Of a stretch of 64,000 bases of DNA, positions 7,360 through 46,438 are shown one piece after another. Position 1 is the stretch's first letter, and every line of letters starts with the position of its first letter. Position numbers and translations under genes: made by a program. The notes beneath the pieces are model-generated. The model did not search any database. It was given only the letters and a program-made list of their open reading frames with translations, and had not been told where the DNA came from. This DNA is from Desulfuromonadaceae bacterium (GTDB lineage: Bacteria > Desulfobacterota > Desulfuromonadia > Geobacterales > Pseudopelobacteraceae): NCBI GenBank assembly GCA_028683855.1, contig JAQUHA010000009.1:1-64000 (forward strand), read 5' to 3'.

Positions 7360-7361
7360 CT

Positions 7362-8423: not shown

Positions 8424-8432
8424 ATTTATCGT

Positions 8433-11059: not shown

Positions 11060-11060
11060 C

Positions 11061-23096: not shown

Positions 23097-24779
23097 CTAC
23101 TTTAGCTCCTGCCATTCAATCGGCTCTCTATGCCCCTCTGCCCGAATAAAATCGGTCTCCGCATCTTTCACTCTGCCGAGTCTATTCAAGACAACTCCTC
23201 TGTGATAGTAATAATTTGGATACGGCTTAATATTAATTGCATTTGTAAATTCGCAGACAGCATCCTCGTCCCGCCCCGCTTTATCAAGTGCATCCGCTCG
23301 CAGAGCGTGAAGGTTATACATCATCGTGTAACCTGCCCTCCTCCCCATCTCTATTGACTTAAGCAGATCATCTGCAGCCTCAATATATCTCCCCTTCTGA
23401 AGATAATAATCCGCACGCAGATAGTAGGCTCTACCTATTGGAGTTATGGCAATTACTCGTGACCAGAGAGTTTCAGAATTTTTCCATGAGGCAATATGGA
23501 GTTCTGTGATAGCGGTATAAGTGAGAAGCAAAGCACCGGTTAAAGCAACCGCCATAAATTGCTTAAAACGCAAACCCGACTTACCTGCAAAACTATAGAA
23601 GCAGGCTAAAAGTACGGCGCTGCAAATACTGAAAGCTATGCCGGGAAGATAGGTAAAACGGGCCGCATGAGACTGTGCACCATTCTGAAAAAAGCCAAGC
23701 ACCGGCAGAAGAGGCAATGTGAAAGCAATCAGAGTTGCCGGTAGCCATCGGTTTTTCTTGTACCGCCAAAGACAGAACAGAATGAATACCGCTATTACTA
23801 TGGACTTTAAAGTATAAGAAGGTGGAAACGGCCACGGCAGAAGATAGATATGAACGATATCGACTGGATAAACGGACATTTTTAAATATTCAAACAGTGA
23901 ATTCCCGGCCAGTAGAAAGCGGCTGGAGAGCGGAATATTCTGATAGGAAACAAGAATACTGTTTCCGGAAGCAGAGTAAATTGTCAAAAACGAAACGATA
24001 CCTACCAGAATAACAAACGGGATTTTTTCAAGAAGTATCTGCCTGATCTTTCCGCTCTGAAACCGACCTGAAGGATACCAGTCAGCCAGTAGAAACAGTG
24101 CAGGGATAACGACACTTACAGGTTTTGACATCAGTGAAAGCAACAGAAAAAACAGCGACAACAGCAGGTTAATAATAACCGGTTTAGAATACCCGCTTAC
24201 GTCCTTCAATTTTGCAAAACGCAAATAGCAGATAAATGCAAGCAGAGAAAAAAAACCGTTCAGAACATCCTTGCGCTCTGTCACCCATGCGACAGATTCG
24301 ACACGGAGCGGATGAAGTGCCCAGAAGAGGCTGGCTAGAAGGAGGGTTGCGGGATAAAGATTTGTTGAGAGTTGAGAGTTTATGGTTGAGAACTCCCCTA
24401 TACCTTCGCTCAACACCCCCCCCTCAACACTCAACAGCTTTTCATTCAGCAACTCATCCGCCACCAGTACAACCAACCCTGCGTTAAGTGAATGCAGGAC
24501 GATATTAGTTACATGATAGCCAAACGGATTGAGACCCCAAATCTGATAATCCAGGGAAAAAGAGATCCAGGTAAGCGGCATCCACCAGCCAAGATAGGAT
24601 GTAGTAAAAGCCTCCCTGATAAATTGCAGATCCAGCAGCCTGATTCCGGTATTTTCTATGACATAGAGCGGATCGTCCCAGTTTACAAAGTCGCAAAAGA
24701 GCGCCGGCAGGTAAACCAGCAGACAGACAACTACTGCGACAAACGCAACTGTGGGTGTTTTTCTGTTCGATAGATTCAA
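23097..24779 (-). CDS. Membrane protein with C-terminal TPR repeats, TMTC/PMT-like
   Basis: This is a 560-residue paralogue of the proteins at 15332, 24818 and 32455. The first loop reads FVNWDDPLYVIENTGIRLL, with the Asp-Asp pair that GT-C enzymes use for catalysis, and the HPLRVESVAWVTERKDVL loop follows near residue 155. About ten hydrophobic segments are followed by short TPR-like units after residue 445. Residues about 114-138 are a hydrophilic insertion encoded by GTTGAGA-type heptamer repeats (24364-24438), absent from the two closer paralogues. A protein or glycan O-glycosyltransferase role is inferred from fold and loops. Confidence 0.75.
   Translation of the reverse strand: MNLSNRKTPTVAFVAVVVCLLVYLPALFCDFVNWDDPLYVIENTGIRLLDLQFIREAFTTSYLGWWMPLTWISFSLDYQIWGLNPFGYHVTNIVLHSLNAGLVVLVADELLNEKLLSVEGGVLSEGIGEFSTINSQLSTNLYPATLLLASLFWALHPLRVESVAWVTERKDVLNGFFSLLAFICYLRFAKLKDVSGYSKPVIINLLLSLFFLLLSLMSKPVSVVIPALFLLADWYPSGRFQSGKIRQILLEKIPFVILVGIVSFLTIYSASGNSILVSYQNIPLSSRFLLAGNSLFEYLKMSVYPVDIVHIYLLPWPFPPSYTLKSIVIAVFILFCLWRYKKNRWLPATLIAFTLPLLPVLGFFQNGAQSHAARFTYLPGIAFSICSAVLLACFYSFAGKSGLRFKQFMAVALTGALLLTYTAITELHIASWKNSETLWSRVIAITPIGRAYYLRADYYLQKGRYIEAADDLLKSIEMGRRAGYTMMYNLHALRADALDKAGRDEDAVCEFTNAINIKPYPNYYYHRGVVLNRLGRVKDAETDFIRAEGHREPIEWQELK
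24364..24438. repeat. Heptamer repeats inside a coding region
   Basis: Forward GTTGAGA-type units (24364-24393) are followed by inverted units (CTCAACA, 24409-24438) on either side of a C-rich run. They encode the loop containing STINSQLST in the TPR membrane protein. Similar units occur at 28183-28251, 29784-29803, 30939-30964 and 31397-31417. Confidence 0.6.
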
Positions 24780-24817: not shown

Positions 24818-26686
24818 TCAGCGTCTTGCTTCCTCTTCAGGAAAATACTGTTGCATAAGATAACCGAATCGTGGGCTGTTCCAAAGCGTTGTCAGCTCCA
24901 TATTTGTGTTAAGTGTATAATAATCCGGATAGCCTCGATAGAGTGCTTTCTCAAGCCACTCCGCTGCAACATCGGCCCGACCGGCAAGAGACTCTACCCG
25001 CACCATCTGATAGGCATTTTCCGCAAGCTTCCATTTTCTTGGATCTGCTTCTATGATACCGAACTGTCTGCGAGCCTCATCATATTTTTTTTCAACAATA
25101 GCAAGCTTACCAAGCAGATTATTAACCTGTACAGCCTCGGGTTGAATAGAGAGGGCCTTGTTATACATCTCTCTTGCTTTGCTGTACTCTTTTTGATCCA
25201 GCGCAATATTCCCCCTCGTTGCCCACCCCATCACATAATCCGGGTTAATCTTGAAAAGCCGTTTCAGGTAATCTTCTGCAATTTCAAGTTCCTTCTTTTC
25301 AGAATGAAGCTGAGCCAAGCCCCAGAGAACATCTGTGCTGTCAGGCTTAAGCTTCAGGCTCCTTTCAAGGGCAACTCTTGAAGCTTCATTATTGCCGTAA
25401 TATCTATGAACCTCACCAAGCGCTTCCCATACTCTGGCGCCATGTGGTGACTTGGTTGTTGCATCCGAGAACAGCGTAAGTGAGTTCTCCCAGACAGGCA
25501 CCCGCTGATATGACGTAATAGAAAGCACAATCATCCAAATAACAATCAGGGGGTAAAGAAAATGTGATGCTGCTTTGGGGATCTTTTCCCTGATCGTGCT
25601 GACACCGTATCCAACCAGAGCGCCGATACCGATAATGGGCATATAAAGATAATGCTCGTACATCATAAGTATTTGAGGAATAATTTGTGAAACCGGCAGA
25701 AGGCCTATCCAGAAGAATAACACCCAGAATCCGAATTTACGGTTACATATAAAAAGACGATAAGATGCATACGCCATAACGCTTAAAAGCAGAAATGCGG
25801 CAACTACCGGAATATCGGGGGAGCGGTAAACAGGCGGTAGGTGTTCAACATTTAGACCGGATGGCCAGAGCAGCAGCCTGAAATAACGGCAGAAAACCGT
25901 AAGCATGGTATAGAACGTTGCTACCGGACTCCCGCCATGATAGCCGACCGTAGCACCGCCGGTCTTTGACTGCCCCAGATAGATCTCTATAGCAGAGAAA
26001 ATGCCTGCTGCTATGAAATAAGGGATTTTATCCTTCAGTCGCAACCGACTGTCTTTTCTGCCGAAACAGAAGTCGTAAAGCAGTAGAATCACCGGCAAGA
26101 TAACACCGGCTGACTTTGCAAGCAGTGAAAGAGTAAAGGATAGTACCGACACTCCATAGAGAAGCTTCCCGCGACTATTATCTGCATCACGGTAACGACA
26201 GTAAGATTCCCATGAAATCAACATAAAAAATAATGATAATAAACCTTTACGCTCAGAAATCCATCCAACCGATTCTACCTGAACCGGATGGAGGAGAAAA
26301 ATAGCCGTAGCAAGCAGCGCAATAAGCCGCTCTCCGTGGAGTCGGAGCAGGAGACGGTAGACCAGCAGACCGTTTAACAAATGAACAACTATATTAGTAA
26401 GGTGATACCCCTCTGGATTAAGTCCCCGCCAGATTGTAAAGTCCAACATGAAGGAGAGCATTGAAAGAGGATTATACTGACCGATAGGCTTGTTTGCCGT
26501 AATATTAAATGCCGCCCTGACATTATCCCAGCTAAAACCAAAGGAGATGGGATTATTCATGATGTAGATATTATCATCCAGCGCCGTCTGAAAACTGTAC
26601 CCTGCAAGCCTTCCATAAACAGCAACGACTGCTGCAAGCAGAATCAAAGCATCAAGCATATAATAGAGGTATTTCTTCAATTTCAT
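24818..26686 (-). CDS. Membrane protein with C-terminal TPR repeats, TMTC/PMT-like
   Basis: The 622-residue protein is most like the paralogue at 15332 in length and order. The first loop is LDDNIYIMNNPISFGF, a DD pair; HPVQVESVGWISERKGLL follows; then about ten membrane segments and five or so TPR units from residue 420 (VWEALGEVHRYYGNNEA, GWATRGNIALDQKEYSKA). The TPR part would face the periplasm or cytoplasm depending on helix number, which I cannot fix. Its ATG is one base after the stop of the radical SAM gene upstream, so they are coupled. Confidence 0.75.
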   Translation of the reverse strand: MKLKKYLYYMLDALILLAAVVAVYGRLAGYSFQTALDDNIYIMNNPISFGFSWDNVRAAFNITANKPIGQYNPLSMLSFMLDFTIWRGLNPEGYHLTNIVVHLLNGLLVYRLLLRLHGERLIALLATAIFLLHPVQVESVGWISERKGLLSLFFMLISWESYCRYRDADNSRGKLLYGVSVLSFTLSLLAKSAGVILPVILLLYDFCFGRKDSRLRLKDKIPYFIAAGIFSAIEIYLGQSKTGGATVGYHGGSPVATFYTMLTVFCRYFRLLLWPSGLNVEHLPPVYRSPDIPVVAAFLLLSVMAYASYRLFICNRKFGFWVLFFWIGLLPVSQIIPQILMMYEHYLYMPIIGIGALVGYGVSTIREKIPKAASHFLYPLIVIWMIVLSITSYQRVPVWENSLTLFSDATTKSPHGARVWEALGEVHRYYGNNEASRVALERSLKLKPDSTDVLWGLAQLHSEKKELEIAEDYLKRLFKINPDYVMGWATRGNIALDQKEYSKAREMYNKALSIQPEAVQVNNLLGKLAIVEKKYDEARRQFGIIEADPRKWKLAENAYQMVRVESLAGRADVAAEWLEKALYRGYPDYYTLNTNMELTTLWNSPRFGYLMQQYFPEEEARR

Positions 26687-32454: not shown

Positions 32455-34110
32455 TTATCTGTAGGAACTTAATGTACCATCATCTTGGATATGATTTAAA
32501 CGTAAAAGTTCCTTCTGCAACCGCAACACATCATCTGGAGGAGAAATCACTGACATTGATAAACCCCACTCCATCATGTTTAAAGCCTCTGCATATCGAC
32601 CAAGATTCCTTAAAATAGCCGTATACTCAAATGCAATTGTAGCATATGTACGCTTCATCCCTCTCCGCAAAGATATTTTCATTGCTTCTGTAATATCTGA
32701 CAAAGCATCCTCATAACGTCCAGTTTCATTTCTGTAAATTGCCCTGGCAAGATATGGAGTGCCGGACATGTGAGGCGATTCGTCTATAATTCTGCTAGCC
32801 AGAGTCTCGGTATTTTTCCACACTGAAATCTGACGCACCGTTTGCCCGGCATAAACAATCAGCAAGAGCCCCGCAAGAAAAATACTCACCCATAGCAGTC
32901 TAAAATATTTTCTCATTACAGTTTCAAGTACTAACCGGGCAAAGCCTGCGGCAACGAGCAACGAAATACCAAGTGACGGCAGATAACTGTAACGGTCAGC
33001 TGCCCACTGACCACCAACCTGTATCAGACCGATCATTGGTAGAAGTGTAATCACATAAAACAGCCATAATGCCAGCCATAACCTCGTAGAGCGGACACTC
33101 CATAAAGCAGTTGCAGAAATGATAAGTATAACAAACAGGTACATCAGGTATTCAAAAAGTCTGCTATACACAACATTACCGGGATGTATATAAAACGCAG
33201 TCAAACCGGTGGGCATAATCGTTTTAACTACATAAAAAAGAAGTGCTTTACACGCAACCAGCAGTCTAGATGCCAGATTTACATCTGGTGCATTAATCAT
33301 AGCAATCTGTTGCGCCATCAGAGTCAAAACAGTTGAAATTGCAGAAAGCACTAAAAAAGGCCACTTTTCTAAAAAGGACTTAAAAAATGATTGCATATCA
33401 GAGATTCGTTTCAGCGGAAACCAATCCAACAATATAAGTATGACAGGTAAACTTACCGCAGCAGGCTTGCTCAAAAAAGCACATGCGGCAAAGAACAGCG
33501 CACATGGGAAATAAAGATAATGGCGGCTTGAACCGGAAGAATCAGAAGAACATTTGGTGTAATTCATCACATACATAAGCAGTGAAGCAACGATAAAAAA
33601 CAGGCAGAGTACATCTTTTCGTTCGCTTGCCCAGACTACAGATTCAACTCGTAGTGGATGAATAGCATAAAAAAGTGAACCAACACTACTACCAATAACT
33701 AAGGGAAGACCGCACTGTGTACCTGCCATATTTTCTATATTATCGGTATGTTGATAATATACCGGGCTCTGTAGCAGTTTAATGAACAAAAGATACACAA
33801 GATATGTTGTACAACTGTGAATACAGATATTGGTGAGATGGTAACCGAACGGATTTAATCCCCAGACAGATCTATCGACAGCAAGTGAAAGCATTGCCAA
33901 AGGGTGCCAGTTTCCTTCATAAAATGAGCTGAAACACCAGAAAACGGTCTTCAGATTAAATGAAGATATATTTGGATTATTAATGATATAGGCAAAATCA
34001 TCAAGTGCTACAAATTGATTAGCAGTTGAGCTGAAGAATACAGCAAAAGTTATCAATGCAGCCAATACAGCTCCACTCTGCACATATTTAGCCGCCGGTC
34101 TGCAGTTCAA
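32455..34110 (-). CDS. Membrane protein with C-terminal TPR repeats, TMTC/PMT-like
   Basis: This fourth paralogue has 551 residues, a TTG start (34110) and a strong GGGAGG six bases upstream. The first loop reads VALDDFAYIINNPNISSF, with the DD pair, and HPLRVESVVWASERKDVL comes near residue 150, after a longer loop than in the 15332 and 24818 copies. TPR-like units follow residue 430. It lies downstream of the tandem terminators at 34183-34250 and so starts a separate transcript with the ankyrin gene. Confidence 0.75.
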   Translation of the reverse strand: MNCRPAAKYVQSGAVLAALITFAVFFSSTANQFVALDDFAYIINNPNISSFNLKTVFWCFSSFYEGNWHPLAMLSLAVDRSVWGLNPFGYHLTNICIHSCTTYLVYLLFIKLLQSPVYYQHTDNIENMAGTQCGLPLVIGSSVGSLFYAIHPLRVESVVWASERKDVLCLFFIVASLLMYVMNYTKCSSDSSGSSRHYLYFPCALFFAACAFLSKPAAVSLPVILILLDWFPLKRISDMQSFFKSFLEKWPFLVLSAISTVLTLMAQQIAMINAPDVNLASRLLVACKALLFYVVKTIMPTGLTAFYIHPGNVVYSRLFEYLMYLFVILIISATALWSVRSTRLWLALWLFYVITLLPMIGLIQVGGQWAADRYSYLPSLGISLLVAAGFARLVLETVMRKYFRLLWVSIFLAGLLLIVYAGQTVRQISVWKNTETLASRIIDESPHMSGTPYLARAIYRNETGRYEDALSDITEAMKISLRRGMKRTYATIAFEYTAILRNLGRYAEALNMMEWGLSMSVISPPDDVLRLQKELLRLNHIQDDGTLSSYR

Positions 34111-34182: not shown

Positions 34183-34213
34183 AATGCCCTCTGCCGATAC
34201 CGGTAGAAGGCAT
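34183..34213 (-). terminator. Second intrinsic terminator of the cytochrome operon
   Basis: The minus strand folds ATGCC-x-TCT-x-CCG, loop GTAT, CGG-x-AGA-x-GGCAT, followed by TTTTTG. It lies just beyond the stronger terminator at 34218-34250, so the pair is a tandem stop. Confidence 0.65.
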
Positions 34214-34217
34214 AATC

Positions 34218-34250
34218 AAAAAAATGGGCAAGCGCAGAGTGCGCTTGCCC
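34218..34250 (-). terminator. Intrinsic terminator of the cytochrome operon
   Basis: A perfect 11-base stem (GGGCAAGCGCA / TGCGCTTGCCC) with a 3-base loop is followed on the minus strand by ATTTTTTTG. It lies 17 bases after the stop of the 19-codon ORF. Confidence 0.85.
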
Positions 34251-34266
34251 TAAGAAACAGAATCAA

Positions 34267-34326
34267 TTAGCAAGGATGAACATCAGCAGAACCAACTACA
34301 CGAGGTTTAATATAAGTTCTTTTCAT
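34267..34326 (-). CDS. 19-residue micropeptide ending VHPC
   Basis: The ORF encodes MKRTYIKPRVVGSADVHPC. It is too short for normal gene finders, but it has one of the best ribosome binding sites in the window (AAAGGAG, followed by ATGATTAA before the ATG). It lies 91 bases after the cytochrome stop and 17 bases before an intrinsic terminator, which makes it the last gene of the cytochrome operon or its own short transcript. The basic N-terminal part with KP, then a Gly-Ser and a terminal Cys, resembles a short ribosomal natural-product precursor or a substrate peptide for a radical SAM maturase, but it has no hydrophobic leader. The function is unknown. Confidence comes from the signals around it. 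Confidence 0.6.
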   Translation of the reverse strand: MKRTYIKPRVVGSADVHPC

Positions 34327-34374
34327 TTAATCATCTCCTTTCCGCATGTCAAGCATGCACGCTTTAGATTTATA

Positions 34375-34403
34375 CTACCCCTACCATACAACAGCAGGGG
34401 TAG
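34375..34403 (-). other. Inverted repeat between cytochrome gene and micropeptide
   Basis: CTACCCCT (34375-34382) and AGGGGTAG (34396-34403) form an 8-base perfect stem with a 13-base loop. There is no T-tract after it, so it may be a processing or stability element that separates the cytochrome and micropeptide messages. Confidence 0.4.
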
Positions 34404-34417
34404 TCCAGATTATTAAA

Positions 34418-37400
34418 TTACCAGAGAGACTTAGTATTCCACTGCTCAACCGTACCGGCAGCGTCAAATGTCGTTCCGCCGGCAGTTGCGGCATCGTGAC
34501 ATGCAGGAGAAACTGCAGATCCGGCTGTACCAAAGAACCAAGGTCCAGGATACGATGATCGCGATCCGGAAATAGCGTAAGCACCACCGCCAGGGAAGCG
34601 ACCTAATCCGTTGCCAGATGAGTTAGAACCGGAGAAAGGCCCAATAATAGTAGCTGTTGGTGTAGTATTTGTAACACGGTTTTTATGTCTTGCATCAAGA
34701 CAGTTTGTTACCAGAAGTCTTGGCAGATTTGAGTTGTGCGGTGAATGGCACTTGGAGCAGGTGTAAGCGTGCTTGGTGTTACCTTGATTGCCACCACCTG
34801 TAGCGGCCCAGCCATCAACAGAGTTGTGAATTCTGGTCATAGTTTTCCAGTTGGTAGTTGATGGCGTGGCAGTACTGTTTATCGAAGCTTTAGCATGGCA
34901 CTTCATGCAAAGACCGGCGAATTGAGTATCTGCTAATGTGTTCAAAGTTGTAGCTGAAGTGCCAAAGTTCCAAGCAATACCAGTCGTAGTAACTGCTATA
35001 GTAGCTGCCTGCATTGTGTTCTGATCTATATGATAACCAGCAGTTGCAGCAGCAGCCAAAGGAGTAATTAAGCTACCACCGCCGTGTGCATAATTTACAG
35101 ATGCAGCATCCTGCTTGTATGGTGAAGTAACAAAAGTCTCTTTCAGCATAGGAACAGCATACTGACGATTTGCAGTCAGAATTCCGGGTGATACTCCATG
35201 TGGGTCATGACAAGGAGTACAGAGCCCACCAATAGTAAGGTTATTAACTATTACAGTACCCAACCCAGATGAGGCACCAAAGTGACCACCCTGATTCGCA
35301 CCCATATTTTTGCCAAGATTATAAGTGCCGGGAGATGTAGCAGTTACATTAATATAAGGATAGGTCGTTAGCTTCGGAAATGGCTGCCCTGCCTTACCAA
35401 AGTAAGCTGAATCGTTATAACCAATAATAGCCTGAGTTGCACCATAAGTACCGTACCCCCATGGAGTAGAACCACCACCAGCATCAGTAGCAGTAGCAGC
35501 AGCCAAATTATTATGGCAGTCAAAACAGAGAGCAGCACCGTTATTGTATAGGTTTTTAGCTCCCGCTGAACCACCGTCAGTTGGTTTATAAGTAACAGAA
35601 TAACCACCCTTATTAGCAGTAGTCTGCTTTAAAATACCACCCTTTTTAATACCGGTAGCACTGTCATAGCTTGTTGTGGCAACTACACCTGTTAAATCTG
35701 AACCGTGTGAATTGTGGCAGTCAAAGCAGAGAACCTGGCTTGTGGCAGTAGATCCGCTGGTATTAGGATAGTTGGCAACTGTAACAGAGTCTTGTGCATT
35801 TTCTGCCAGAGTGTTCCAACCGCGCTGATTGCTTGCAGCATTACCGTGAGCTGAGTAAGCTTTTGTCTGCGAGTTTTTAGTGTTTGTGTAGTTTCCGGTA
35901 AATTTGCCCCAGAGAGTTGTAGTTGGATCAGAATATTTCGCAGCAATACTCTGTGCAGTGCCGCCCAAACCACCAAGAGTAGTAGCAAGAGCCTCCCATG
36001 AATATTTTACAGGAGTATTTGTATCACCTAGTGCAGAGAAAGGTGTTATTCCCTTATTTCCATCATTATGACACCCGATGCAGTGACTATTTATCTTCGC
36101 AAGTTCGGTACGAAGCGAATCGGTTGCTCCACCACTGGTATAGGCAACACCAGTAGAGACAGTATATGTAGGGCCAATAGGACGCGTAGTTGCATTCCAG
36201 ATAACAAGGTCAACCACACCGCCAGCAGTACCCTGATGGTAAGAAGTTGTACCGCCTGTTGCATCAGATTCCCAGTGACACTGGTAACAAACAGTACCAT
36301 CTACCGCAGCAGCACCCTGATAATGATGTGAATACCCTGCACCAAACTGAGGAGTAATTGCTAAACGGTTACCTTTAGCTCCATCACCACCAGTATCATG
36401 GCAGCCTGTACATGAACCACCTTCTACAGTGCCGTTTATATGGAGCGTGTTGTCAAAGAAAATATTGTTAAACGCAGTAGGTGCCTCATTTATAGTCGGA
36501 TGACAGCCTGTTCCTGTGCCATTCGAAGAGCAGGTTGATAATCCAGCAAAATTTGTCACCGCAGAAACAGAATGTGAAGCTGGTGGGAGATCATGACAAA
36601 TCAAACAGTCATCAATAGAACCGGTGATAGTTACAGCCCAGGTTGGTACTTTTGTTCTATGGCAAGCAGTAGCAGAAGAACAGGTTGTTCCGTTATAACC
36701 GGCGACTGAAGCCTCAGCAGGTAGTGCAGTGTCATTATGACCAGCAGCATCAACAGTCCCAGGAACTGCATGACAGTCAGCACAAGTAATAACTTTTGTA
36801 GTAATTGCATGAGTATTATTCAAGTGGCTGACATGAATTGTAGAACTTGCGGAATTAGTCGTTCTTGCAGTTGTTGTAAAAGTAGCTTTATCTGAGACGT
36901 CACTGTGACAAATTGCACATTCTGCTCCACCACTTACTGATCCCCATGTTGGGCTTAAAGTACCGTGGCAGTTAGTAGTGTTGCAGGTGCCTGGCGTAAA
37001 TGCGTCATTATTAACTGCAAAACCCGATGGTCTTGAATAAGAACCACCACTGATTGATCCAGCCATATCAATAGTTCCGGATGAGTGATCAAACGTTGTA
37101 TTTGAGGAATGGCAGAGTGTGCAGGTTGTCCCATGTGAAGCAACTGAGTGCGAACCGGGGAATGAACCGGTTGAACCACCTACACGAGTAGCACTGTCTG
37201 TCAAAGAGGGATAACCATTATGGCACTGATTGCAGTTTGTGATTGTTGAGGCAGCCTGCGCGGTTATAGTGTAAGTGTGCGTAGCCGTTCCCAAAGTGGA
37301 GTTAACAGGCGTTGTGAGTGTAATTACAAATGTTCCGCCGTTACTTGATGCAGAAACGGGTACATTAATAGTACCGGAGGTTGAGAGAGCAGGAATGTTA

Positions 37401-38620
37401 AGAGTACCGCTTATTGCGGTATAATCAACACCGGCAGTAGCAGTGCCGTTTGAAGTTGCATAATTTACAGCAGTAGCTTGCCCTGATGCAGCAGATAGTT
37501 GAACAGTGAAAACTGCAGGAGTTACTGATTTATTACCGGTAGAAGTTGATGAAATAAATCCGATAGTAGGAGTTCCATCATCATCGGTAATTGTAACAGT
37601 TTGAGTTGCAGTGCCAAGTGTTGCACCGTTAGTAGCATTTGATAGCGTAACAGTAAATGTTTCGCTACCTTCATCGTATGAATCATTTAAAATTGGAACG
37701 GTAATGGTTTTAGCTGCAGCATCGCCATCAGCCCAGCTTAATGTACCGGATGTAGATGTATAGTCCTGGCTAGCAGTTCCTGTTCCGTCAGCAGTCGTAT
37801 AATCAACTGTAACGGCACCCGTAGAACCACCGGTACGATTTACGGTGATTGTTGCATTACCCACCGCTTCAGCAACAGTCTGTGTTGTTGCAGAAACTGC
37901 AAGTGAACCAGCGGTGGCAGCAGCAGTTTCCGTAACAGTGAAGTTGGTTGAAGTAGCAGTACCGGTAATACCAAAATAAAAACGAACACCGGCCGTACCA
38001 CGATAAGTATAGGATGTTTCAATCAGCAAGCTATGGCCACTCGCAACCCGACCAGTACCATTAATTGTGAAATCTCCAGCCGCCCAGGTTGTCTGTGCTG
38101 TAGTCCCGGCAGTACCAAGCGTCTTGGTTGCGCCAGTTGCAACAAGAGTTTTATTTCCGGCGGTGCCGGCAGGATCATAATCATATAATGAAACACTGAC
38201 TGCTTCATTTGTCGCTGCCGGTCTTATAGCCATACTGGCACTTATATTTGATATATCCATGGCTGAGGCATACACAGGAGCATACAATCTCTCAACAATA
38301 TAGGTCGAGCCACTGGTTGTAAAACCTGCCGGATAATATCTTGAACCTGTACCGGTTTCTGCGGTACCAAGAACCGTTTTAGCAGGATAACCGGTAAAAG
38401 AAGATGGAGAACCAGCAGGTAGATTGGCCGGGCTATCAACACCTATTGTTGAGGCAGTGCTTGCCTGCATATAATAAGTTATCACTGCAGCCTTGGCATC
38501 TTTTGGCTGATACCATCCCTGATACATAAACACTGTGGTTGCCATCGTGAGGAGGAGAACCAGACTGGTTTTCATCCACCAGCTCATTCCATTCAATTTT
38601 TTCTTAATTACTTGTCCCAT
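34418..38620 (-). CDS. Calx-beta/multihaem c-type cytochrome hybrid
   Basis: From the ATG at 38620 (GGGAGGAG six bases upstream) the protein has 1400 residues; the frame runs 47 codons further without signals. Residues 17-33 are a hydrophobic export or anchor segment. Two Calx-beta-like domains lie at about 235-350 and 350-450, with the DYTSTSGTLSW and SYDEGSETFTVTL motifs. From about residue 460 I count 13 CxxCH sites (first CNQCH, last CSKCH), plus CNTTNCH (CxxxxCH) paired with CAICH as in Geobacter tandem haem domains, and longer spaced Cys-His motifs that may not bind haem. It is likely an outer-surface electron carrier with an adhesive or structural front part. Confidence 0.8.
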   Translation of the reverse strand: MGQVIKKKLNGMSWWMKTSLVLLLTMATTVFMYQGWYQPKDAKAAVITYYMQASTASTIGVDSPANLPAGSPSSFTGYPAKTVLGTAETGTGSRYYPAGFTTSGSTYIVERLYAPVYASAMDISNISASMAIRPAATNEAVSVSLYDYDPAGTAGNKTLVATGATKTLGTAGTTAQTTWAAGDFTINGTGRVASGHSLLIETSYTYRGTAGVRFYFGITGTATSTNFTVTETAAATAGSLAVSATTQTVAEAVGNATITVNRTGGSTGAVTVDYTTADGTGTASQDYTSTSGTLSWADGDAAAKTITVPILNDSYDEGSETFTVTLSNATNGATLGTATQTVTITDDDGTPTIGFISSTSTGNKSVTPAVFTVQLSAASGQATAVNYATSNGTATAGVDYTAISGTLNIPALSTSGTINVPVSASSNGGTFVITLTTPVNSTLGTATHTYTITAQAASTITNCNQCHNGYPSLTDSATRVGGSTGSFPGSHSVASHGTTCTLCHSSNTTFDHSSGTIDMAGSISGGSYSRPSGFAVNNDAFTPGTCNTTNCHGTLSPTWGSVSGGAECAICHSDVSDKATFTTTARTTNSASSTIHVSHLNNTHAITTKVITCADCHAVPGTVDAAGHNDTALPAEASVAGYNGTTCSSATACHRTKVPTWAVTITGSIDDCLICHDLPPASHSVSAVTNFAGLSTCSSNGTGTGCHPTINEAPTAFNNIFFDNTLHINGTVEGGSCTGCHDTGGDGAKGNRLAITPQFGAGYSHHYQGAAAVDGTVCYQCHWESDATGGTTSYHQGTAGGVVDLVIWNATTRPIGPTYTVSTGVAYTSGGATDSLRTELAKINSHCIGCHNDGNKGITPFSALGDTNTPVKYSWEALATTLGGLGGTAQSIAAKYSDPTTTLWGKFTGNYTNTKNSQTKAYSAHGNAASNQRGWNTLAENAQDSVTVANYPNTSGSTATSQVLCFDCHNSHGSDLTGVVATTSYDSATGIKKGGILKQTTANKGGYSVTYKPTDGGSAGAKNLYNNGAALCFDCHNNLAAATATDAGGGSTPWGYGTYGATQAIIGYNDSAYFGKAGQPFPKLTTYPYINVTATSPGTYNLGKNMGANQGGHFGASSGLGTVIVNNLTIGGLCTPCHDPHGVSPGILTANRQYAVPMLKETFVTSPYKQDAASVNYAHGGGSLITPLAAAATAGYHIDQNTMQAATIAVTTTGIAWNFGTSATTLNTLADTQFAGLCMKCHAKASINSTATPSTTNWKTMTRIHNSVDGWAATGGGNQGNTKHAYTCSKCHSPHNSNLPRLLVTNCLDARHKNRVTNTTPTATIIGPFSGSNSSGNGLGRFPGGGAYAISGSRSSYPGPWFFGTAGSAVSPACHDAATAGGTTFDAAGTVEQWNTKSLW

Positions 38621-38639
38621 TGTATCTCTCCTCCCGCGC

Positions 38640-41600
38640 TTAGTACGTAGACCAAATTGGTGTAGTGAAGTAGTGACAGCTAATATTTGAACAGGTCTTT
38701 GGTGTATCAGCAGAAGACCCACCCGCTGTACCGCTGTAAAGAGTAGAGCCTGTTGTGCCAAACAGATATGTAGATGATATATTTACGTCAACCGAATTTG
38801 ACATATGAGTACCACCTGTATGACATACACCGCAAACATTTGTCCATGAAGGATTTACAGATCCATAAGTATCGCTTGCAGGTGACAATGTAACCGTAAA
38901 GCGATTTGTTGTCAAATATGTTATGTGGGCTTCGTGAGCACCCTTGCCTTCAGGATTAATTGCAATAGCTGCATCCCATGATCCTGATTCATAACCATGA
39001 CATCCATTGCAAGACCCGCCTGATGACTGAACTATACCGTCAATATGAAGGCGACGATTTGTTTCATTGTCAAAACCACCAGTGGCATTAAAGTGACTAT
39101 GACAGGTTGTACATGAAGTAGTAGGATCAGCCGAGCCATGTGATCCAGCAACTGATGCCGGTGGGTTGCCATGGCACATAGCACAGTCCGTCAGCTTAGT
39201 ACCAGTCATAAGATTTGCTGACCAGCTTGGCGTTCTGTTAGTTCCGGTCGTGTCGCCATTTTTCAGACTTGCACCGTGACAGTAAGTTGTACATGTACCG
39301 TTAACATCTGTACCTGACCAAGCAGCTGCAACACTATTATCCGTAGCAGTAGATGCATTAGTGAAAACAACATTAACAATATTACCATTCATATGGTCTG
39401 TGAAAGTCACCGTTGCAGAACTGTTATGGCACTCTGAGCAAGTCAACTCACGCGAGTAGCCGTAAGAAGTGACTCCATTAACGTGCGCCTGGTGAGCACC
39501 GATTGCCGGTGCCATATTAGCATTTGTTGCAGAAGCTGCAGGTGTACCGTGACACTTTGTACAGAGTGCATTGCCTGTGCTGGCACCCCAGGTAGGTGGA
39601 TTATAAGTACCGTGACATGAAGCAGTTGCACAGGTTGTGTAAGGAGAGCCCTTTGTTTTCTCAAGTGAGTAGCCAACATTTGCTACGTCGATGTTACCGT
39701 CTGCATGACCATTGGCAAAGGTCGCAGCGGTTGTTGCCGTTGTACCTGTTGCATGACATTGTATGCATACTGCACCGGAAATTGCCATATGTAATGTATG
39801 ACTTCCAGTATTCGGTCCACTTGCAGTGATTACTTTATTGATTCCTGTGTGGCATGCCGCACAACCTGTAGAAGTTGCGCTCCAGGAAGGTGTAATTACA
39901 AGACCACCAACACTGTATGGGTCAGCATGGCAGGTAGCTGTCGAACAGGTCAGAACAGATGACGTTGAATGCTTAGTAATGTTTGTGGTGCCACTGGTGT
40001 TTTTGGTACCAATTACATCTATGTCAGCATCTATATGACCGCTTACAAGCGATGGTGCAGTTGTAGCAGTTGTGCCAGTCGCGTGACAGTCTGTACATAC
40101 ACCGGTGACTCCACCAACCATTGTAGTAACCATATGTTTAGCATGAGCGCCTGTTGCAGGACCGGTAGCTGTGATTGCGTTTCCACCAACATGACACGCT
40201 GCACAACCTGTAGAAGTTGCGCTCCAGGAAGGTGTAATTACAAGACCACCAACACTGTATGGGTCAGCATGGCAGGTAGCTGTCGAACAGGTCAGAACAG
40301 ATGGCGTTGAATGCTTAGTAATGTTTGTGATGACAATGGTATTTTTGGTACCAACAACATCTATATTTGTGTCTATATGACCATTTGCAAATGTAGGTGC
40401 TGCTGTTGCTGTTGTACCGGTTGCATGACAGTCAGTACAAACTTTTGTTGTAAGCATTGTGGATGTCATATGTTTGTTGTGAGCACCTGTTGCAGGACCG
40501 GTAGCTGTAATTACGTTTCCACCAGTATGACACGCTGCACATCCTGTAGAAGTTGCACTCCAGGAAGGTGTAACTACAAGACCACCAACACTGTACGGGT
40601 CAGCATGGCAGGTAGCTGTCGAACAGGTCAACGTAGAAGCAGATGAGTGCTTGGTTATATCTGTTGTGCCTCCGGTATTTTTTGTACCAATAACATCAAT
40701 ATCACCATCCGCATGACCATTTAATAGTGTGGCAGATGTTGATGATGTTGTTCCGGTAGCATGACAATCTGTACAGCCCCCTGTAACACCGCCAATCATT
40801 GTAGATGACATATGTTTATTATGGGCACCAGTTGCAGGCCCTGTTACTGAAATAGAGTAAGCACTATGGCAGGCATTACAACCGGAGGCTGAAGTACCCC
40901 AAGTTGGTGGTGCAGGCGTGTCGGTACTGTATGGATCAGCATGACAGCTTGCACATGCAGTTGGGCTATCAACGTTTACTGTTCCATTTACATGGTTAGC
41001 GCCTGTTTCAGTATAACCAACATGGCAGGTTGTACAACTGGAGTTATTTACATCGCTAAGTTGTACAAAGTGAGTTGCATGTGATGTGTTTGTATATCCG
41101 GCAGGTGCAGTGGCAGTTGCATGACAAGAGCCGCAAGCTGCTGTGCCACCCCAGGTTGGATCGCTGAATGCGCCCTTACCATTACTGTGACAGTAAACAG
41201 CCGAGCAACTTGACCCAGAAATTGTTGGATTAGTACCCGAAAAGCTTATGTCTTTAACTGCGTTGACGTGTTTTCCTCCTGCAATGTTTACTGTTGAATT
41301 GTCAATTGCAGTTGTTGAGTGACAAGTTACGCATCCATATCCCCTAGAAGAGATGGTGGTTATGTGGAAAGTGTGTGAACCAGTATCAGGAACCGATGCA
41401 TGACAAGCATCACAAGTACTAATAGTTCCAAGACCACCAGCCCATGTTACAGTTTTTGGTGAACCAAGTGTTGTTGTTGATGTGCCGTCACTATGGCAGT
41501 AAATATTTGAACAGTCTGTTCCGTTGTAACTGGCATTGGATCCAGCCAAAACATCAGAGGATACTGGCACTTTTGTAACAAACTCACCGTTACTGAAATT

Positions 41601-42965
41601 TCCGTCATTATGTGTGTCTCCAGTACCTTCTGAACCATTATGGCACTGTTTACAATTAAATGAGTAGTTAGTATGACTTATGTGAGGCGTTGTATCTTCA
41701 TTTATGGCATAACCAGAAGCTTTATTAGCTTCAGTTGGCGGATAACCGTGGCAAGTATCACAAGCACCAGCACCTGGACGGAAAGAGCCAGTTACTTCGT
41801 TGTGTTTATGACAAGCTGCACAGTCAACCCTGGTTAGAGTAGTACCGTCTATATCAAAGTGAGTCGGAGTTAGATTGTGGCAGCTTTGGCATACACCACC
41901 ACCACCTGCTGTGTAATATTTTTTATTCACAGCATCGTTGAATATAATTCTCTTCGAGACGCGACCAGCAGATGAATATGTGAGATAACGACGTACCAGA
42001 TAAACGTTTGGTATATCTGAAGTGTCACCGGCATTAGCGGCAGCATCAAACTCAACATGACCAGAGTGGCAGTCATTACACTGAACACCATGATTTGACA
42101 ATACAGTGGTATTGTGTGCCGTTTTATTCGTGTGACAGTTTGTACAGATATTTGTATCATTTGCTGTAGCACCAAAAGGGCTTACACGAAGAAGATGACC
42201 TTTTGCATTTGGTGTCTGAGCTGAGGTAAATGAATCGAATGTTGAAGAGTCAGAGTCAGAATTATGAACACCGTGACAGGTTGAACAGACAACCAGACCA
42301 TTTACAAGTTTAACCTGTGCAGTCGGATTAACTGTGTTAGTCAAAGGGGCACTAAGATAATTACTTGAGTTGTTGCTGTAAGCTGTAGCATAACTGACAT
42401 TTACCGGATGAGTACCAAGAGTATGAGTTGGCAAATCCCGAGGTGCATGGCAATTACGGCACATCTGATCAGAGGCTTTATTGTCGGCACGAAGGTACGG
42501 AGTTGTCAGAGACTCCACATTGCCTGATGTTCCATGAACACTATGGCAACGACCACAGGAAAGATAATCCTTATAGCCAGTCCAGAGAAGTCCTTTTGCA
42601 CGCGGATCCAAGGTAGGTTTCTGGGCTCCTGCAGCTGGAACAACATCAGTACCAAACCACTTATGAGAATTCATGACCGGAGCATCCTGAGTCACCGTAA
42701 CTGTGGTGCCAAATGGATTGGCAAAGTCGTCCTTAACAAAATTCTTTGTAGATTCAACGCTGGAGGAGTTGTGGCAGACCAAACATACGTTCTGACTGTA
42801 TGTTACATCTCTGTTGCCAATAGTTTTACCGAGTATGTGGCACGACCCACAATTATACCCGAAACTTCCTGTGATTGAGTTGTGTGAACCTTGATTTGCA
42901 AAAACCAGGTTTGGAACCACCAACAACAGTGTTACAGCAAGATACTTCAAAAATTGTTTGTTCAT
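38640..42965 (-). CDS. Giant multihaem c-type cytochrome, about 38 haem motifs
   Basis: This 1441-residue protein has a signal peptide (cleavage about residue 23, after VFA). By eye I count 30 CxxCH sites, seven CxxxxCH (CSNIYCH, CSAVYCH, three CSTATCH, CATASCH, CSNISCH) and one CxxxCH (CTTYCH). CxxxxCH followed by CxxCH is a hallmark of Geobacter-type haem domains. Three near-identical units of about 113 residues, each with CSTATCH, CAACH and CTDCH-type sites, occupy roughly residues 700-1040. A role as an extracellular or outer-membrane electron conduit is expected. Maturation would need the periplasmic haem lyase, not encoded here. Confidence 0.85.
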   Translation of the reverse strand: MNKQFLKYLAVTLLLVVPNLVFANQGSHNSITGSFGYNCGSCHILGKTIGNRDVTYSQNVCLVCHNSSSVESTKNFVKDDFANPFGTTVTVTQDAPVMNSHKWFGTDVVPAAGAQKPTLDPRAKGLLWTGYKDYLSCGRCHSVHGTSGNVESLTTPYLRADNKASDQMCRNCHAPRDLPTHTLGTHPVNVSYATAYSNNSSNYLSAPLTNTVNPTAQVKLVNGLVVCSTCHGVHNSDSDSSTFDSFTSAQTPNAKGHLLRVSPFGATANDTNICTNCHTNKTAHNTTVLSNHGVQCNDCHSGHVEFDAAANAGDTSDIPNVYLVRRYLTYSSAGRVSKRIIFNDAVNKKYYTAGGGGVCQSCHNLTPTHFDIDGTTLTRVDCAACHKHNEVTGSFRPGAGACDTCHGYPPTEANKASGYAINEDTTPHISHTNYSFNCKQCHNGSEGTGDTHNDGNFSNGEFVTKVPVSSDVLAGSNASYNGTDCSNIYCHSDGTSTTTLGSPKTVTWAGGLGTISTCDACHASVPDTGSHTFHITTISSRGYGCVTCHSTTAIDNSTVNIAGGKHVNAVKDISFSGTNPTISGSSCSAVYCHSNGKGAFSDPTWGGTAACGSCHATATAPAGYTNTSHATHFVQLSDVNNSSCTTCHVGYTETGANHVNGTVNVDSPTACASCHADPYSTDTPAPPTWGTSASGCNACHSAYSISVTGPATGAHNKHMSSTMIGGVTGGCTDCHATGTTSSTSATLLNGHADGDIDVIGTKNTGGTTDITKHSSASTLTCSTATCHADPYSVGGLVVTPSWSATSTGCAACHTGGNVITATGPATGAHNKHMTSTMLTTKVCTDCHATGTTATAAPTFANGHIDTNIDVVGTKNTIVITNITKHSTPSVLTCSTATCHADPYSVGGLVITPSWSATSTGCAACHVGGNAITATGPATGAHAKHMVTTMVGGVTGVCTDCHATGTTATTAPSLVSGHIDADIDVIGTKNTSGTTNITKHSTSSVLTCSTATCHADPYSVGGLVITPSWSATSTGCAACHTGINKVITASGPNTGSHTLHMAISGAVCIQCHATGTTATTAATFANGHADGNIDVANVGYSLEKTKGSPYTTCATASCHGTYNPPTWGASTGNALCTKCHGTPAASATNANMAPAIGAHQAHVNGVTSYGYSRELTCSECHNSSATVTFTDHMNGNIVNVVFTNASTATDNSVAAAWSGTDVNGTCTTYCHGASLKNGDTTGTNRTPSWSANLMTGTKLTDCAMCHGNPPASVAGSHGSADPTTSCTTCHSHFNATGGFDNETNRRLHIDGIVQSSGGSCNGCHGYESGSWDAAIAINPEGKGAHEAHITYLTTNRFTVTLSPASDTYGSVNPSWTNVCGVCHTGGTHMSNSVDVNISSTYLFGTTGSTLYSGTAGGSSADTPKTCSNISCHYFTTPIWSTY
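39859..40880 (-). repeat. Tandem repeats of about 340 bases inside the giant cytochrome
   Basis: The segment beginning GCACAACCTGTAGAAG recurs at 39859, 40201 and 40537 (the third with small changes), spacings of 342 and 336 bases. A fourth, weaker unit follows. Each unit encodes three haem sites, so copy number changes the haem count in frame. Confidence 0.8.
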
Positions 42966-43000: not shown

Positions 43001-43810
43001 TTATTTATCGTGACAGGAAAGACAGAGAGCACTACCTGTATTACTGGTTACAAGAAAAGGCTTATAGCTTATATCTGAACTTGTATCAACATGAGGATCA
43101 TGACATGTAGAGCATTCTACTCTATTGTTGCTACCAAAAAACCTCGCTCCAGCAGACTTTGCAGAAACAACGTCATGCAAACCCACAGGGTCGTCTGCAT
43201 AGACATCAGAGTAACTGAAGTTAATAGGATGGTCGTTTGTCAGATCTGTACCAGATGTTCCACCAATGTTCATCGATGGCCCTACTAAACCCGTAAAAAG
43301 ATCAGGTTCCGGTGATGGCATAATTAAGGGCGTAAGCCCGCCAGTTGTCGTATCTATAAGCAATGTTCCAGCAGGGTAACTGAACGGAGTTGCATCAATA
43401 GCTGTTGGTGACGAAGCAGTATGAAGTATATTCATTGCAGTCTTGCCATCATGACAACTAAGACAGAGAAGAGATGGTGAATCTTCCGGAAACGGAAGAG
43501 CTGATTGGGTAGTTGTGATGTTTGATAATGTACCGGACGATGTGTAAAGTCTGAATGCCGTATTCCCGCCGGAAGCCTTGTTCCAAAGCAACTTGGCTTG
43601 TCCCGGGTTGTGAGGTGTATGACAGAACACACATACCTGTGTCATCCCCGAGGAGGCGGTGGCTTTGTAAACACTTGAAAGTCCAGTTGTCGAGAAATTA
43701 TGCACAGTATTTGCGACATTGCTTGGAACAGCGGCAACAGAAGCAGTAGTTACAAGAACTGCAGATGCTAACGATGCCAGTAATAAATATTTTTTTGAAA
43801 TTAACTTCAT
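43001..43810 (-). CDS. Exported tetrahaem c-type cytochrome
   Basis: The 269-residue protein has a signal peptide of about 27 residues (ending SVAAV) and four CxxCH sites: CVFCH at residue 60, CLSCH near 114, CSTCH near 236 and CLSCH at 263. The last haem His is the third residue from the C-terminus. CHTPHNP and STCHDPHV resemble doubled CxxCHxxH sites in small Geobacter cytochromes, where the second His can be the distal ligand. The gene sits between the NHL protein and the giant cytochrome in the same direction, with short gaps, so it belongs to the same operon and probably passes electrons to it. Confidence 0.85.
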   Translation of the reverse strand: MKLISKKYLLLASLASAVLVTTASVAAVPSNVANTVHNFSTTGLSSVYKATASSGMTQVCVFCHTPHNPGQAKLLWNKASGGNTAFRLYTSSGTLSNITTTQSALPFPEDSPSLLCLSCHDGKTAMNILHTASSPTAIDATPFSYPAGTLLIDTTTGGLTPLIMPSPEPDLFTGLVGPSMNIGGTSGTDLTNDHPINFSYSDVYADDPVGLHDVVSAKSAGARFFGSNNRVECSTCHDPHVDTSSDISYKPFLVTSNTGSALCLSCHDK

Positions 43811-43852: not shown

Positions 43853-46438
43853 TCAATCTCTATGATTCTCATCTCTCAAGGTCCTGGTAGTCGAGTTACC
43901 AGCGGCATCAGTAGCAACTATTGAAAGTCTGTTTTTGTTATACTCGACCCTGCTAAGATCAACTGACCACGCTGTCCCATTGACCACTACATTGGCTTTT
44001 CTCAAACTTCTACCATTATCTTTAATTTCTACTGTAGCATCCTGCTCAACAGTACCGGTCAACAGACCTCTTCTACTTAACCCGTCAACTGTAAGCTTAG
44101 GTGAAACCGTATCATAAATCAAAGTACGAGTTGCAGTGCTAACAGCGCCCGATGGGTTTTCAACGCTTACAATTATCGGATAAACGCCATCTTTCTCAAA
44201 CTCTGCCTTAAAGCTGAATTTACCATTCCTTATTTTTGTTGTGCTTTCAATCCCATTTATCGAATAAGTAGCAACTTTTGCGTCACTATCATCAACAGTA
44301 CCATATATCTTTATTTCCTTATTTACAGCAATATCCTGAACAGGTGAAGATATAGCTAAAAGAGCTTTTGCAGCGTCGTACACAATAGAACGCTTTAAAG
44401 TAGAGCTGTTACCAAACAGGTCTGTAGCAACAACTTCAATTGTATTAAGTCCCGGCTGAAGAGTTAAATCAGCCGTCCAGATATTATTATTAATAGATGC
44501 CTGAATTCCAGAAACTGTAACAACTGAGTTCTCGTCAACAGTCCCGGCAATCTGAACCTGAGGAATGTTAGTAACTGAATTGTCCATTGGGGCTGTAACA
44601 GCAATAACCGGAGCAGTTGCGTCAAAATTTACTGTACGTGTATTCAGCACCGCGTTGCCAGCCAAATCGACCGCTGAGACTGTTATCGTATTTGCACCCG
44701 AAACAAGTGACACCGGAGTAGTAAATGAGTTATCGAGCAGCGCAACAGACAATCCGTTAACAAGTACTGACACAAGATTTGCGTCAACTACGTTACCAGA
44801 AATATTCTGAACCTGTGTACCAGTGCTACTTCCGTCTGCTATTGCCGACACATTCAAGACCGGTGCAACTGAATCCAAAACAGATGAAACTGTCAAGGAT
44901 GCCTTTTCACTATACTCTTTTTGAGCAACCACCGAAATATTGTTTAAACCCTCAGCCAGAGCAACTGTATATGACCATTCAGTACCAGTGACTGCAGCGA
45001 AACCGGATATCGCTGTAGAACCATTAGTTACGCTTACGGATGCTCCCTGATCAACAGTACCCGTAAGAACTAAAGCAGAATTATTTGTCTGACCAGGAAT
45101 CTCGGCATCAACAGCAAGAGCAGGAGCCGGCGTAATATACGAAGTTGTCAGGGTTATCGGCTGCGAAGAGTTGCCGGCTGCGTCCTTAGCAACAACAGAG
45201 ATCGTGTTTAGACCAGGACTCAACGCGGTTATTTGAGCTTTCCATTCCGATGCTGATACATATTCAACCGGACTAACAAGAGAACCGGAATCTGCCGATA
45301 CTGCAACCACAGCACCGACTTCAACACTACCGGTAACCATAACTGTCGGAGTACTTATTGTTGCAATAACGGGGTTTACCGAAAGCGAGGGAGGGGTTCT
45401 GTCAACATAAACCGGAGTAGTGCCGCCATCTATTCCGTATACACCTACGCGACTAAGCGAACCATCTACAACAAACAGACGACTATTATCTGCATCGAAC
45501 GCAAGATCAACCGGACTCATTAACTGTCCATTTGCAGTACCCGGAGTCCCCAGATAATTTTTTGAAGTACCTGCAACCAGAAGCGGTGTATCGGTCGCTG
45601 CATCAATCACGTGTACTATAGAGAGATATGCGTCAGAGATATAAATTCTCTCTAGAACCGGTGTTGAAGTTTTGCTGTACTGAAAAGCTATCGCCGTAGG
45701 CAGCACAAACTGCATCATCTGAACAGGAAGCGACGAATAAGTAGTATTTGTACCAGGAAGCGGGATTCCAATACTCTTAACAAAATTACCATCTACATCA
45801 AAGAACTGAACCCTATGGCTCAATGTATCTGCCACCACAAGGCGACGCGACACCCTCTCAAAGGAGATGCCGGTTGGACCTGACAACATACCAACAGGAT
45901 TGGAGACTGTCGTGCCATTAGCATCCGCTTTCACACCCTTTGCAAACGCTTTAACAAAGACACCCGAAGCTGTATACATCTCAATCTGATTTGCCTTTGT
46001 ATCAACAACATAAATATAACCGGTCTGGTCGTCAACAGCCACGCTACATGGCTTTTGAAGCTGCCCACCAACCAGACGTGTCAACTCTTCACCAGTAGCA
46101 ACGTCATAACGAGCAACAAAAGAACCCTGAGCAACAAGTAGCGAACCATCCTGCGCAAATGCCATTCCGGATGGAGCTTCCGATGTCTTAATAACCCCGA
46201 GAAGTTCAGTACCGGACGGATCATAGTGACTAACCCCATGCAACCTGACATCGGCAACATAAACGTCATTATTAGCATCCAGCACTAATCTGACTGGCGA
46301 CAGAACCCCCTTTGTCAATGGATTTTGCACCGTCACTGTCGGCGAAGTAGCCGAATAAGAAACTACAGGTAGCGATATAGCCACTACTGCCACTACCATC
46401 ATACATTTTGCTACAGCCTGTTTCACTTGTCTAAGCAT
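43853..46438 (-). CDS. Exported NHL-repeat/Ig-like domain protein
   Basis: The 861-residue protein has a signal peptide (residues 1 to about 29). Residues about 38-340 form an NHL-type beta-propeller (for example LVLDANNDVYVADVRLHGVSHY, VAVDDQTGYIYVVDTKANQI). The rest is a row of about six Ig-like domains with the NTISVVAKDAAGNSS-type repeat end. No haem motif is present. NHL proteins commonly accompany large cytochromes in Geobacter-like genomes and may act as a surface scaffold. It is the first gene after the sigma-54 promoter, with GGAGG seven bases before its ATG. Confidence 0.8.
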   Translation of the reverse strand: MLRQVKQAVAKCMMVVAVVAISLPVVSYSATSPTVTVQNPLTKGVLSPVRLVLDANNDVYVADVRLHGVSHYDPSGTELLGVIKTSEAPSGMAFAQDGSLLVAQGSFVARYDVATGEELTRLVGGQLQKPCSVAVDDQTGYIYVVDTKANQIEMYTASGVFVKAFAKGVKADANGTTVSNPVGMLSGPTGISFERVSRRLVVADTLSHRVQFFDVDGNFVKSIGIPLPGTNTTYSSLPVQMMQFVLPTAIAFQYSKTSTPVLERIYISDAYLSIVHVIDAATDTPLLVAGTSKNYLGTPGTANGQLMSPVDLAFDADNSRLFVVDGSLSRVGVYGIDGGTTPVYVDRTPPSLSVNPVIATISTPTVMVTGSVEVGAVVAVSADSGSLVSPVEYVSASEWKAQITALSPGLNTISVVAKDAAGNSSQPITLTTSYITPAPALAVDAEIPGQTNNSALVLTGTVDQGASVSVTNGSTAISGFAAVTGTEWSYTVALAEGLNNISVVAQKEYSEKASLTVSSVLDSVAPVLNVSAIADGSSTGTQVQNISGNVVDANLVSVLVNGLSVALLDNSFTTPVSLVSGANTITVSAVDLAGNAVLNTRTVNFDATAPVIAVTAPMDNSVTNIPQVQIAGTVDENSVVTVSGIQASINNNIWTADLTLQPGLNTIEVVATDLFGNSSTLKRSIVYDAAKALLAISSPVQDIAVNKEIKIYGTVDDSDAKVATYSINGIESTTKIRNGKFSFKAEFEKDGVYPIIVSVENPSGAVSTATRTLIYDTVSPKLTVDGLSRRGLLTGTVEQDATVEIKDNGRSLRKANVVVNGTAWSVDLSRVEYNKNRLSIVATDAAGNSTTRTLRDENHRD

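Follow-up and report, generated by a model that had tools for sequence, protein, structure and literature searches.

A conserved short peptide ending in Pro-Cys, encoded behind giant multihaem cytochromes, as the probable precursor of the GeoRSP system

The peptide gene and its genomic context

The window, a 64,000-nucleotide stretch of a Desulfuromonadaceae genome, carries on its minus strand a gene series that ends in a very short open reading frame (ORF). The series begins with an NHL/Ig-repeat secreted protein (43853..46438), followed by a tetrahaem cytochrome (43001..43810), a 30-haem cytochrome of the CxxxxCH/CxxCH type (38640..42965) and, in the same operon as the latter, a giant multihaem cytochrome (34418..38761) with 13 CXXCH motifs in its ORF and Calx-beta domains. 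The TTG start listed for the giant cytochrome overlaps the preceding gene, and its true start probably lies at about 38620. Directly downstream, separated from the cytochrome stop codon (34418) by 91 nt, lies the peptide gene (34267..34326, minus strand). Read from 34326 to 34267, it gives exactly MKRTYIKPRVVGSADVHPC-stop, a peptide of 19 residues with a leader-like YIKPRV segment (YxxPx[VI]) and a C-terminal VHPC.

The first-pass annotation had described this ORF as having a good ribosome binding site, a hairpin with an 8-base stem before it and two tandem terminators after it. The ORF, ribosome binding site and terminators were borne out by direct inspection, and the hairpin proved stronger than claimed. 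The ribosome binding site, AAAGGAG (34335..34341, minus strand), stands 8 nt 5' of the ATG. An intrinsic terminator with an 11-bp stem and a T7 tail (34226..34250, minus strand; -22 kcal/mol, z -5.2) follows the peptide gene, which is the last ORF upstream of it, and a second, terminator-like hairpin with a T5 tail lies beyond (34184..34213, minus strand; -18.3 kcal/mol, z -4.2). Because a fold of unusual stability occurs just 3' of the peptide in 82% of 104 homologous loci, the peptide gene typically ends its transcription unit. The stable hairpin between the cytochrome stop codon and the peptide (34374..34404, minus strand) has 14 pairs and no T-run (-21.2 kcal/mol, z -4.2). It is not kept in the family, with an unusually stable fold at that place in only 12% of the 104 loci.

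Elsewhere in the window, the genes at 23097-24779, 24818-26686 and 32455-34110 specify TMTC-like polytopic membrane proteins that resemble one another and bear TPR-like repeats at their C-termini; look-alikes also occur near peptide or GeoRSP loci in other genomes (L062 465-2192; L073 17220-18890). The window also holds four radical SAM genes in series (5857-11110), which are MoaA-like or B12-binding.

A conserved peptide family under selection

The peptide belongs to a real and undescribed family. Its members, with at least 74 distinct sequences of 17-21 residues, share the consensus MKK-x(1-3)-YVxP[KR][VI]VGSA[DNVSAT]VHPC-stop and nearly always have a good ribosome binding site. Two search patterns, both derived from positive genomes, were applied to 98 related genomes: a strict pattern places the peptide in 19 of them, and the looser Y-x2-P-x-[VI]-x5-[VILF]-[HY]-P-C-stop finds 73 copies in 29. 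The reversed looser pattern, used as a control, gives zero matches in the same 98 genomes, in keeping with the earlier view that such signals are rarely this good by chance. Short homologous ORFs were likewise found behind related cytochrome genes; their absence would, by the first-pass annotation, have refuted it. Among about 85,000 species, the hosts are Geobacterales/Desulfuromonadales and, unexpectedly, many Nitrospirota. Geomobilimonas luticola and Pelotalea chapellei are among the culturable carriers. One variant (L088 10889-10990, in G045), behind a 27-haem cytochrome, ends in VYPC in place of VHPC.

Known models do not cover the family. No NCBIfam precursor model, TIGR02107 included, matches the peptide (0 families at E 10, with PqqA found as a control), and no Pfam model for it was found. 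A selenopeptide test was also negative: the Cys codon is TGY, followed by TAA, TGA or TAG, with no in-frame TGA read as Sec.

Positions fixed by a search pattern prove nothing alone, and selection was therefore measured in the eight free codons. There, in-frame pN/pS ranges from 0.25 (close pairs) up to 0.44, vs 1.4-2.8 in shifted frames; synonymous and nonsynonymous sites thus vary unequally, whereas equal variation would, by the first-pass annotation, have refuted its view. The DNA flanking the peptide is close to random on both sides. Together, the low in-frame ratio and the random flanks show that selection preserves the peptide itself. Moreover, a search free of the Cys and stop positions returned 64 matches, all of which (64/64) end in Pro-Cys-stop anyway; this invariant terminal Cys is the residue that the first-pass annotation had put forward as a putative thioether, lipid or metal site. 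The sequence is nearly identical across all paralogues and two phyla.

These data bear on the reading of the ORF as a regulatory leader, an attenuator or a chance ORF. Although a hairpin and terminators flank it, as such a reading would have it, the ORF sits at the 3' end of its gene series, the upstream hairpin is not conserved and the family spans two phyla. In addition, its amino acids are conserved, whereas third codon positions and flanks vary freely. This reading is accordingly highly improbable.

Co-occurrence with the GeoRSP system

The YxxPx[VI] segment suggested a system with an RRE/PqqD component, and GeoRSP was considered for that reason. GeoRSP is an unassigned RRE/PqqD system present in Geobacter and represented in NCBIfam by TIGR04302 (PqqD-like protein), TIGR04303 (radical SAM/SPASM protein) and TIGR04304 (SPASM protein). 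Its radical SAM enzyme was scored as present where TIGR04303 exceeded the curated cut-off of 400 bits, which is the case in 27/98 related genomes. Peptide and enzyme occur together in 25 of the 98, the peptide alone in 4, the enzyme alone in 2 and neither in 67 (Fisher 5e-17). The peptide thus tracks the GeoRSP radical SAM/SPASM enzyme, which answers a suggestion of the first-pass annotation that co-occurrence with SPASM genes be checked.

Related genomes are not independent, and kinship was addressed by a within-genus test and by a second phylum. The highest overlap in 20,000 within-genus permutations was 23, vs 25 observed, and the window's own genus alone gives 9 genomes with both, 2 with the peptide only, 1 with the enzyme only and 27 with neither. 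The corresponding counts for the 47 genomes of a Nitrospirota order taken without selection are 15/0/1/31 (p 2e-11), where a GeoRSP gene divided between two contigs is counted as present. Of 20 Nitrospirota genomes picked for the peptide, 18 have GeoRSP above the cut-off, and in a nineteenth the gene is broken across contig ends.

The exceptions are few. Three of the four peptide-only genomes are 66-81% complete; G007, which is 97% complete, has a peptide without GeoRSP, and its peptide contig may be misassigned. Conversely, G018 and G070 have GeoRSP and no recognisable peptide, and none was found near GeoRSP there either.

Other candidate enzymes were rejected. The maturase of geopeptides (TIGR04280), used as a control, shows no association with the peptide (p 0.66) and has no match above its cut-off in the window's own genome. 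The radical SAM genes of the window, the series of four included, are not GeoRSP, scoring at best 86 bits against the cut-off of 400. The earlier proposal that a nearby radical SAM enzyme modifies the peptide therefore stands in part: the peptide behaves as a radical SAM/SPASM substrate, but the enzyme lies outside the window, on contig C62.

The GeoRSP gene cluster

In the window's genome, the GeoRSP radical SAM enzyme (C62:85035-86009) scores 600 bits against the cut-off of 400 and belongs to a full triad of PqqD-like, radical SAM and SPASM proteins. Genes for NosD-like beta-helix, carboxypeptidase-regulatory, OpuAC-like and ResB-like proteins and an ArsP/SO_0444-like permease lie 5' of the triad; FmdE-like, PhnD-like, TPR and YedE-type selenium/sulfur transporter genes lie 3' of it. 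The same core recurs in Nitrospirota GeoRSP clusters, with the addition of a cupin. Clusters L062, L267, L268 and L270 carry a TIGR04112 YedE-type transporter, an ArsP/SO_0444-like permease, and ResB-like and NosD-like beta-helix proteins.

Many genomes carry a peptide copy 6-12 kb from the radical SAM gene. In several Geobacterales, and in Nitrospirota as well, that copy immediately precedes the cluster's NosD-like first gene, an arrangement not seen in the window's own genome. Proximity of peptide and GeoRSP is above chance on contigs longer than 300 kb (p 4e-5), while shorter contigs give no judgement. In the window's own genus, most peptide genes lie apart from the GeoRSP cluster, yet the two still co-occur, which argues against mere hitch-hiking. 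No second peptide was found in the GeoRSP cluster of the window's genome. Two peptide copies adjoin further radical SAM genes: that of G005 lies next to a BchE-like B12 enzyme (L076 9724-11238), and that of G087 has a HemN/HutW-like enzyme 96 nt downstream (L067 9901-11253).

Recognition and modification of the peptide

The GeoRSP PqqD-like protein is modelled as a winged helix whose best solved match is the complex of TbiB1 with a lasso leader (TM up to 0.83), followed by PqqD. Lasso RREs recognise [Y/W]xxPx[L/V/I/F/A] (PMC13381572; PMC12710340). The YxxPx[VI] segment of the peptide agrees with this RRE type, its Y and P being set by the search pattern. By sequence, the closest solved relatives of the GeoRSP radical SAM enzyme are PqqE and SkfB; by family score, AhbD, NirJ2 and MftC come next. 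The model of the SPASM protein, of modest confidence (pLDDT 70), shows a radical-SAM-like barrel whose nearest matches are PqqE and SuiB. Taken together, the RRE model, the relatives of the radical SAM enzyme and the SPASM model suggest that GeoRSP likely modifies the VHPC end of the peptide. As to the bond formed, a thioether or, at the C-terminus, a decarboxylation can be guessed at by analogy with related systems.

Client proteins and a shared C-terminal domain

Among the proteins encoded before 110 non-redundant peptide copies, 39 have at least four haems and nine are giant non-haem proteins with, where tested, fibronectin-III and DUF2341 repeats. Many further copies lie behind secreted proteins of about 270 residues, and others are not judgeable because of contig ends. 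The earlier suggestion of a small partner of surface cytochromes is therefore right in tying the peptide to them and too narrow, given the copies behind fibronectin-III and 270-residue secreted proteins. Several giant non-haem proteins (L066 101-9886, L067 3356-9649, L145, L160 and L268 82-2562), with fibronectin-III repeats where tested, end in ...TPxYxxGDxTC[NPRQ], with a lone Cys at or near the C-terminus.

The upstream cytochromes share a C-terminal domain, LPRLxVTNCLDxxHRGRxxSGG...GRFPxGGG...CHD..AGG...WNxKTPW-stop, with two invariant Cys outside CXXCH, spaced as C-X(47-84)-CH. In the window, it forms the end of the giant cytochrome (34418..34726, minus strand; stop codon 34418-34420; profile match at G000:C26:34421-34726), reading LPRLLVTNCLDARH...GRFPGGG...CHD..AGG...WNTKSLW-stop and likewise holding two Cys outside CXXCH. 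The idea of a lone Cys in the cytochrome tail was rejected on account of the two invariant Cys, between which a disulfide is possible. The domain (TNCLDxxH...CH...WNxKTPW-stop) is undescribed, and searches of Pfam, NCBIfam and the PDB returned no match specific to it.

A domain profile built from sequences of positive genomes, with no use of the peptide, identifies 107 proteins in 29/98 genomes. Domain and peptide occur together in 28 genomes, the domain alone in 1, the peptide alone in 1 and neither in 68; for domain and GeoRSP, the counts are 26/3/1/68. The domain is absent from all 67 genomes that lack both peptide and GeoRSP. Many domain proteins have no adjoining peptide, and the co-occurrence is consequently more than operon linkage. 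Five genomes of the tested Nitrospirota order have the same tail, all of them (5/5) with peptide and GeoRSP. G018, with no recognised peptide, still has a cytochrome tail ending in WNQKTTW.

Three further readings would assign the peptide or the domain other roles. One holds that the GeoRSP product diffuses freely as a signal or metallophore, the cytochrome neighbourhood reflecting only co-regulation with metal respiration. A C-terminal His and Cys could bind metal, and the GeoRSP cluster supplies PhnD-like and OpuAC-like substrate-binding proteins, an ArsP-type permease and a YedE-type transporter. Against this, the near-identity of the sequence in paralogues and two phyla is unlike signals or antibiotics, near one-to-one co-occurrence with the cytochrome domain would not be expected, and the genes adjoining the peptide showed no receptor, no regulator and no dedicated peptidase. 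A free product is thus unlikely.

On another reading, the two Cys of the domain would hold an atypical haem, or some other centre, that GeoRSP matures with the peptide as a scaffold or chaperone rather than as part of the product. Haem sites of atypical kind may depend on maturation factors of their own, for example SirE for SirA (PMC6976685), a precedent that suits this reading, as do the invariant Cys outside CXXCH (one of them as CH), the ResB-like protein of the cluster and the next-best scores of the GeoRSP enzyme against AhbD and NirJ2, both haem-tailoring radical SAM enzymes. However, the wide variation in the spacing of the two Cys fits a disulfide equally, the PqqD-like RRE implies a peptide substrate, and giant non-haem proteins precede peptide copies too, leaving this reading rather improbable.

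In the third, the C-terminal domain would be a sorting or anchoring signal to which the modified peptide is attached, or at which it triggers processing, following a PEP-CTERM/exosortase-like logic. The C-terminal position, the conserved last residues WNxKTPW, the occurrence of several tagged proteins in one genome and their restriction to genomes with the enzyme system are as this would predict. It is nevertheless doubtful, since no transmembrane helix or basic tail follows the motif, no sortase- or exosortase-like gene was identified in the cluster and the other peptide-linked giants end differently.

Proposed role and significance

The reading preferred here is that the peptide is a GeoRSP RiPP precursor whose modified VHPC end serves giant surface cytochromes, to which a probability of roughly three in four is given. 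Judged from sequence and models, the first part, that the peptide is the GeoRSP precursor, is very probable; service to giant surface cytochromes with the new domain is the moderately favoured continuation. The peptide would be translated along with the giant surface cytochrome, and its YxxPx[VI] segment would be bound by the GeoRSP PqqD-like protein, acting as the RRE. The radical SAM/SPASM enzyme and its radical-SAM-like SPASM partner would then modify the invariant VHPC. The product may serve giant surface proteins, foremost the domain-bearing multihaem cytochromes, as a ligand, cofactor or attachment group. A more specific version is offered tentatively: the output of GeoRSP would be a prosthetic group or ligand, derived from the peptide and installed in a dedicated C-terminal domain of giant extracellular cytochromes and of other giant surface proteins. 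If true, it would be a new post-translational maturation of the extracellular electron-transfer machinery, common to Geobacterales and Nitrospirota.

GeoRSP has so far been an enzyme system with a name and no assignment; the peptide is probably the substrate it lacked, and an apparent client is supplied too in the undescribed domain on giant surface cytochromes. Short ORFs of such size normally escape annotation, which would explain why the link between peptide and GeoRSP has been missed so far. Should the peptide become a cofactor or attachment group, metal reducers would rely in their extracellular electron transfer on a peptide-derived part that nobody has sought. With one domain protein (the cytochrome at 34418-38761), one peptide and one GeoRSP cluster, the window's genome is an ideal test case.

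Comparison with known systems

GeoRSP itself is the nearest system, as it is found in the genomes of the peptide and a peptide copy often heads its cluster. Its PqqD-like protein implies a peptide substrate. The family libraries and literature searched describe no GeoRSP precursor peptide, and no paper on GeoRSP or TIGR04303 was found in that literature, which mostly left out subscription journals. Most peptide copies, however, are dispersed behind genes for giant surface proteins.

Lasso peptides resemble the peptide in leader-RRE recognition only, through the YxxPx[VI] motif and an RRE model closest to TbiB1. The peptide is too short for a leader plus a lasso core, and the lasso candidate was rejected because neither cyclase nor protease is among the annotated genes of the clusters read. 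Sactipeptides and ranthipeptides share an SkfB-related SPASM maturase and a conserved Cys as a potential thioether site; here, however, the Cys is single and at the very C-terminus, and the peptide is conserved rather than antibiotic-like. In PEP-CTERM/exosortase systems, too, a C-terminal domain shared by several proteins is restricted to genomes with one enzyme system, but the present system has no membrane anchor segment or sortase, and its enzyme set would modify a peptide.

Mycofactocin (MftA/MftB/MftC) and PQQ (PqqA/PqqD/PqqE) likewise combine an RRE protein and a related SPASM enzyme with a short precursor whose C-terminus is extremely conserved. Mycofactocin was first recognised by the genome co-occurrence of a short conserved peptide, a SPASM enzyme and redox partner proteins (PMC3023750). 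This logic recurs here with different components, and the peptide too co-occurs with many redox partner proteins. Unlike both systems, the present peptide has a VHPC core without Tyr, a length of 17-21 residues and several dispersed copies, and its partners are giant multihaem cytochromes rather than dehydrogenases.
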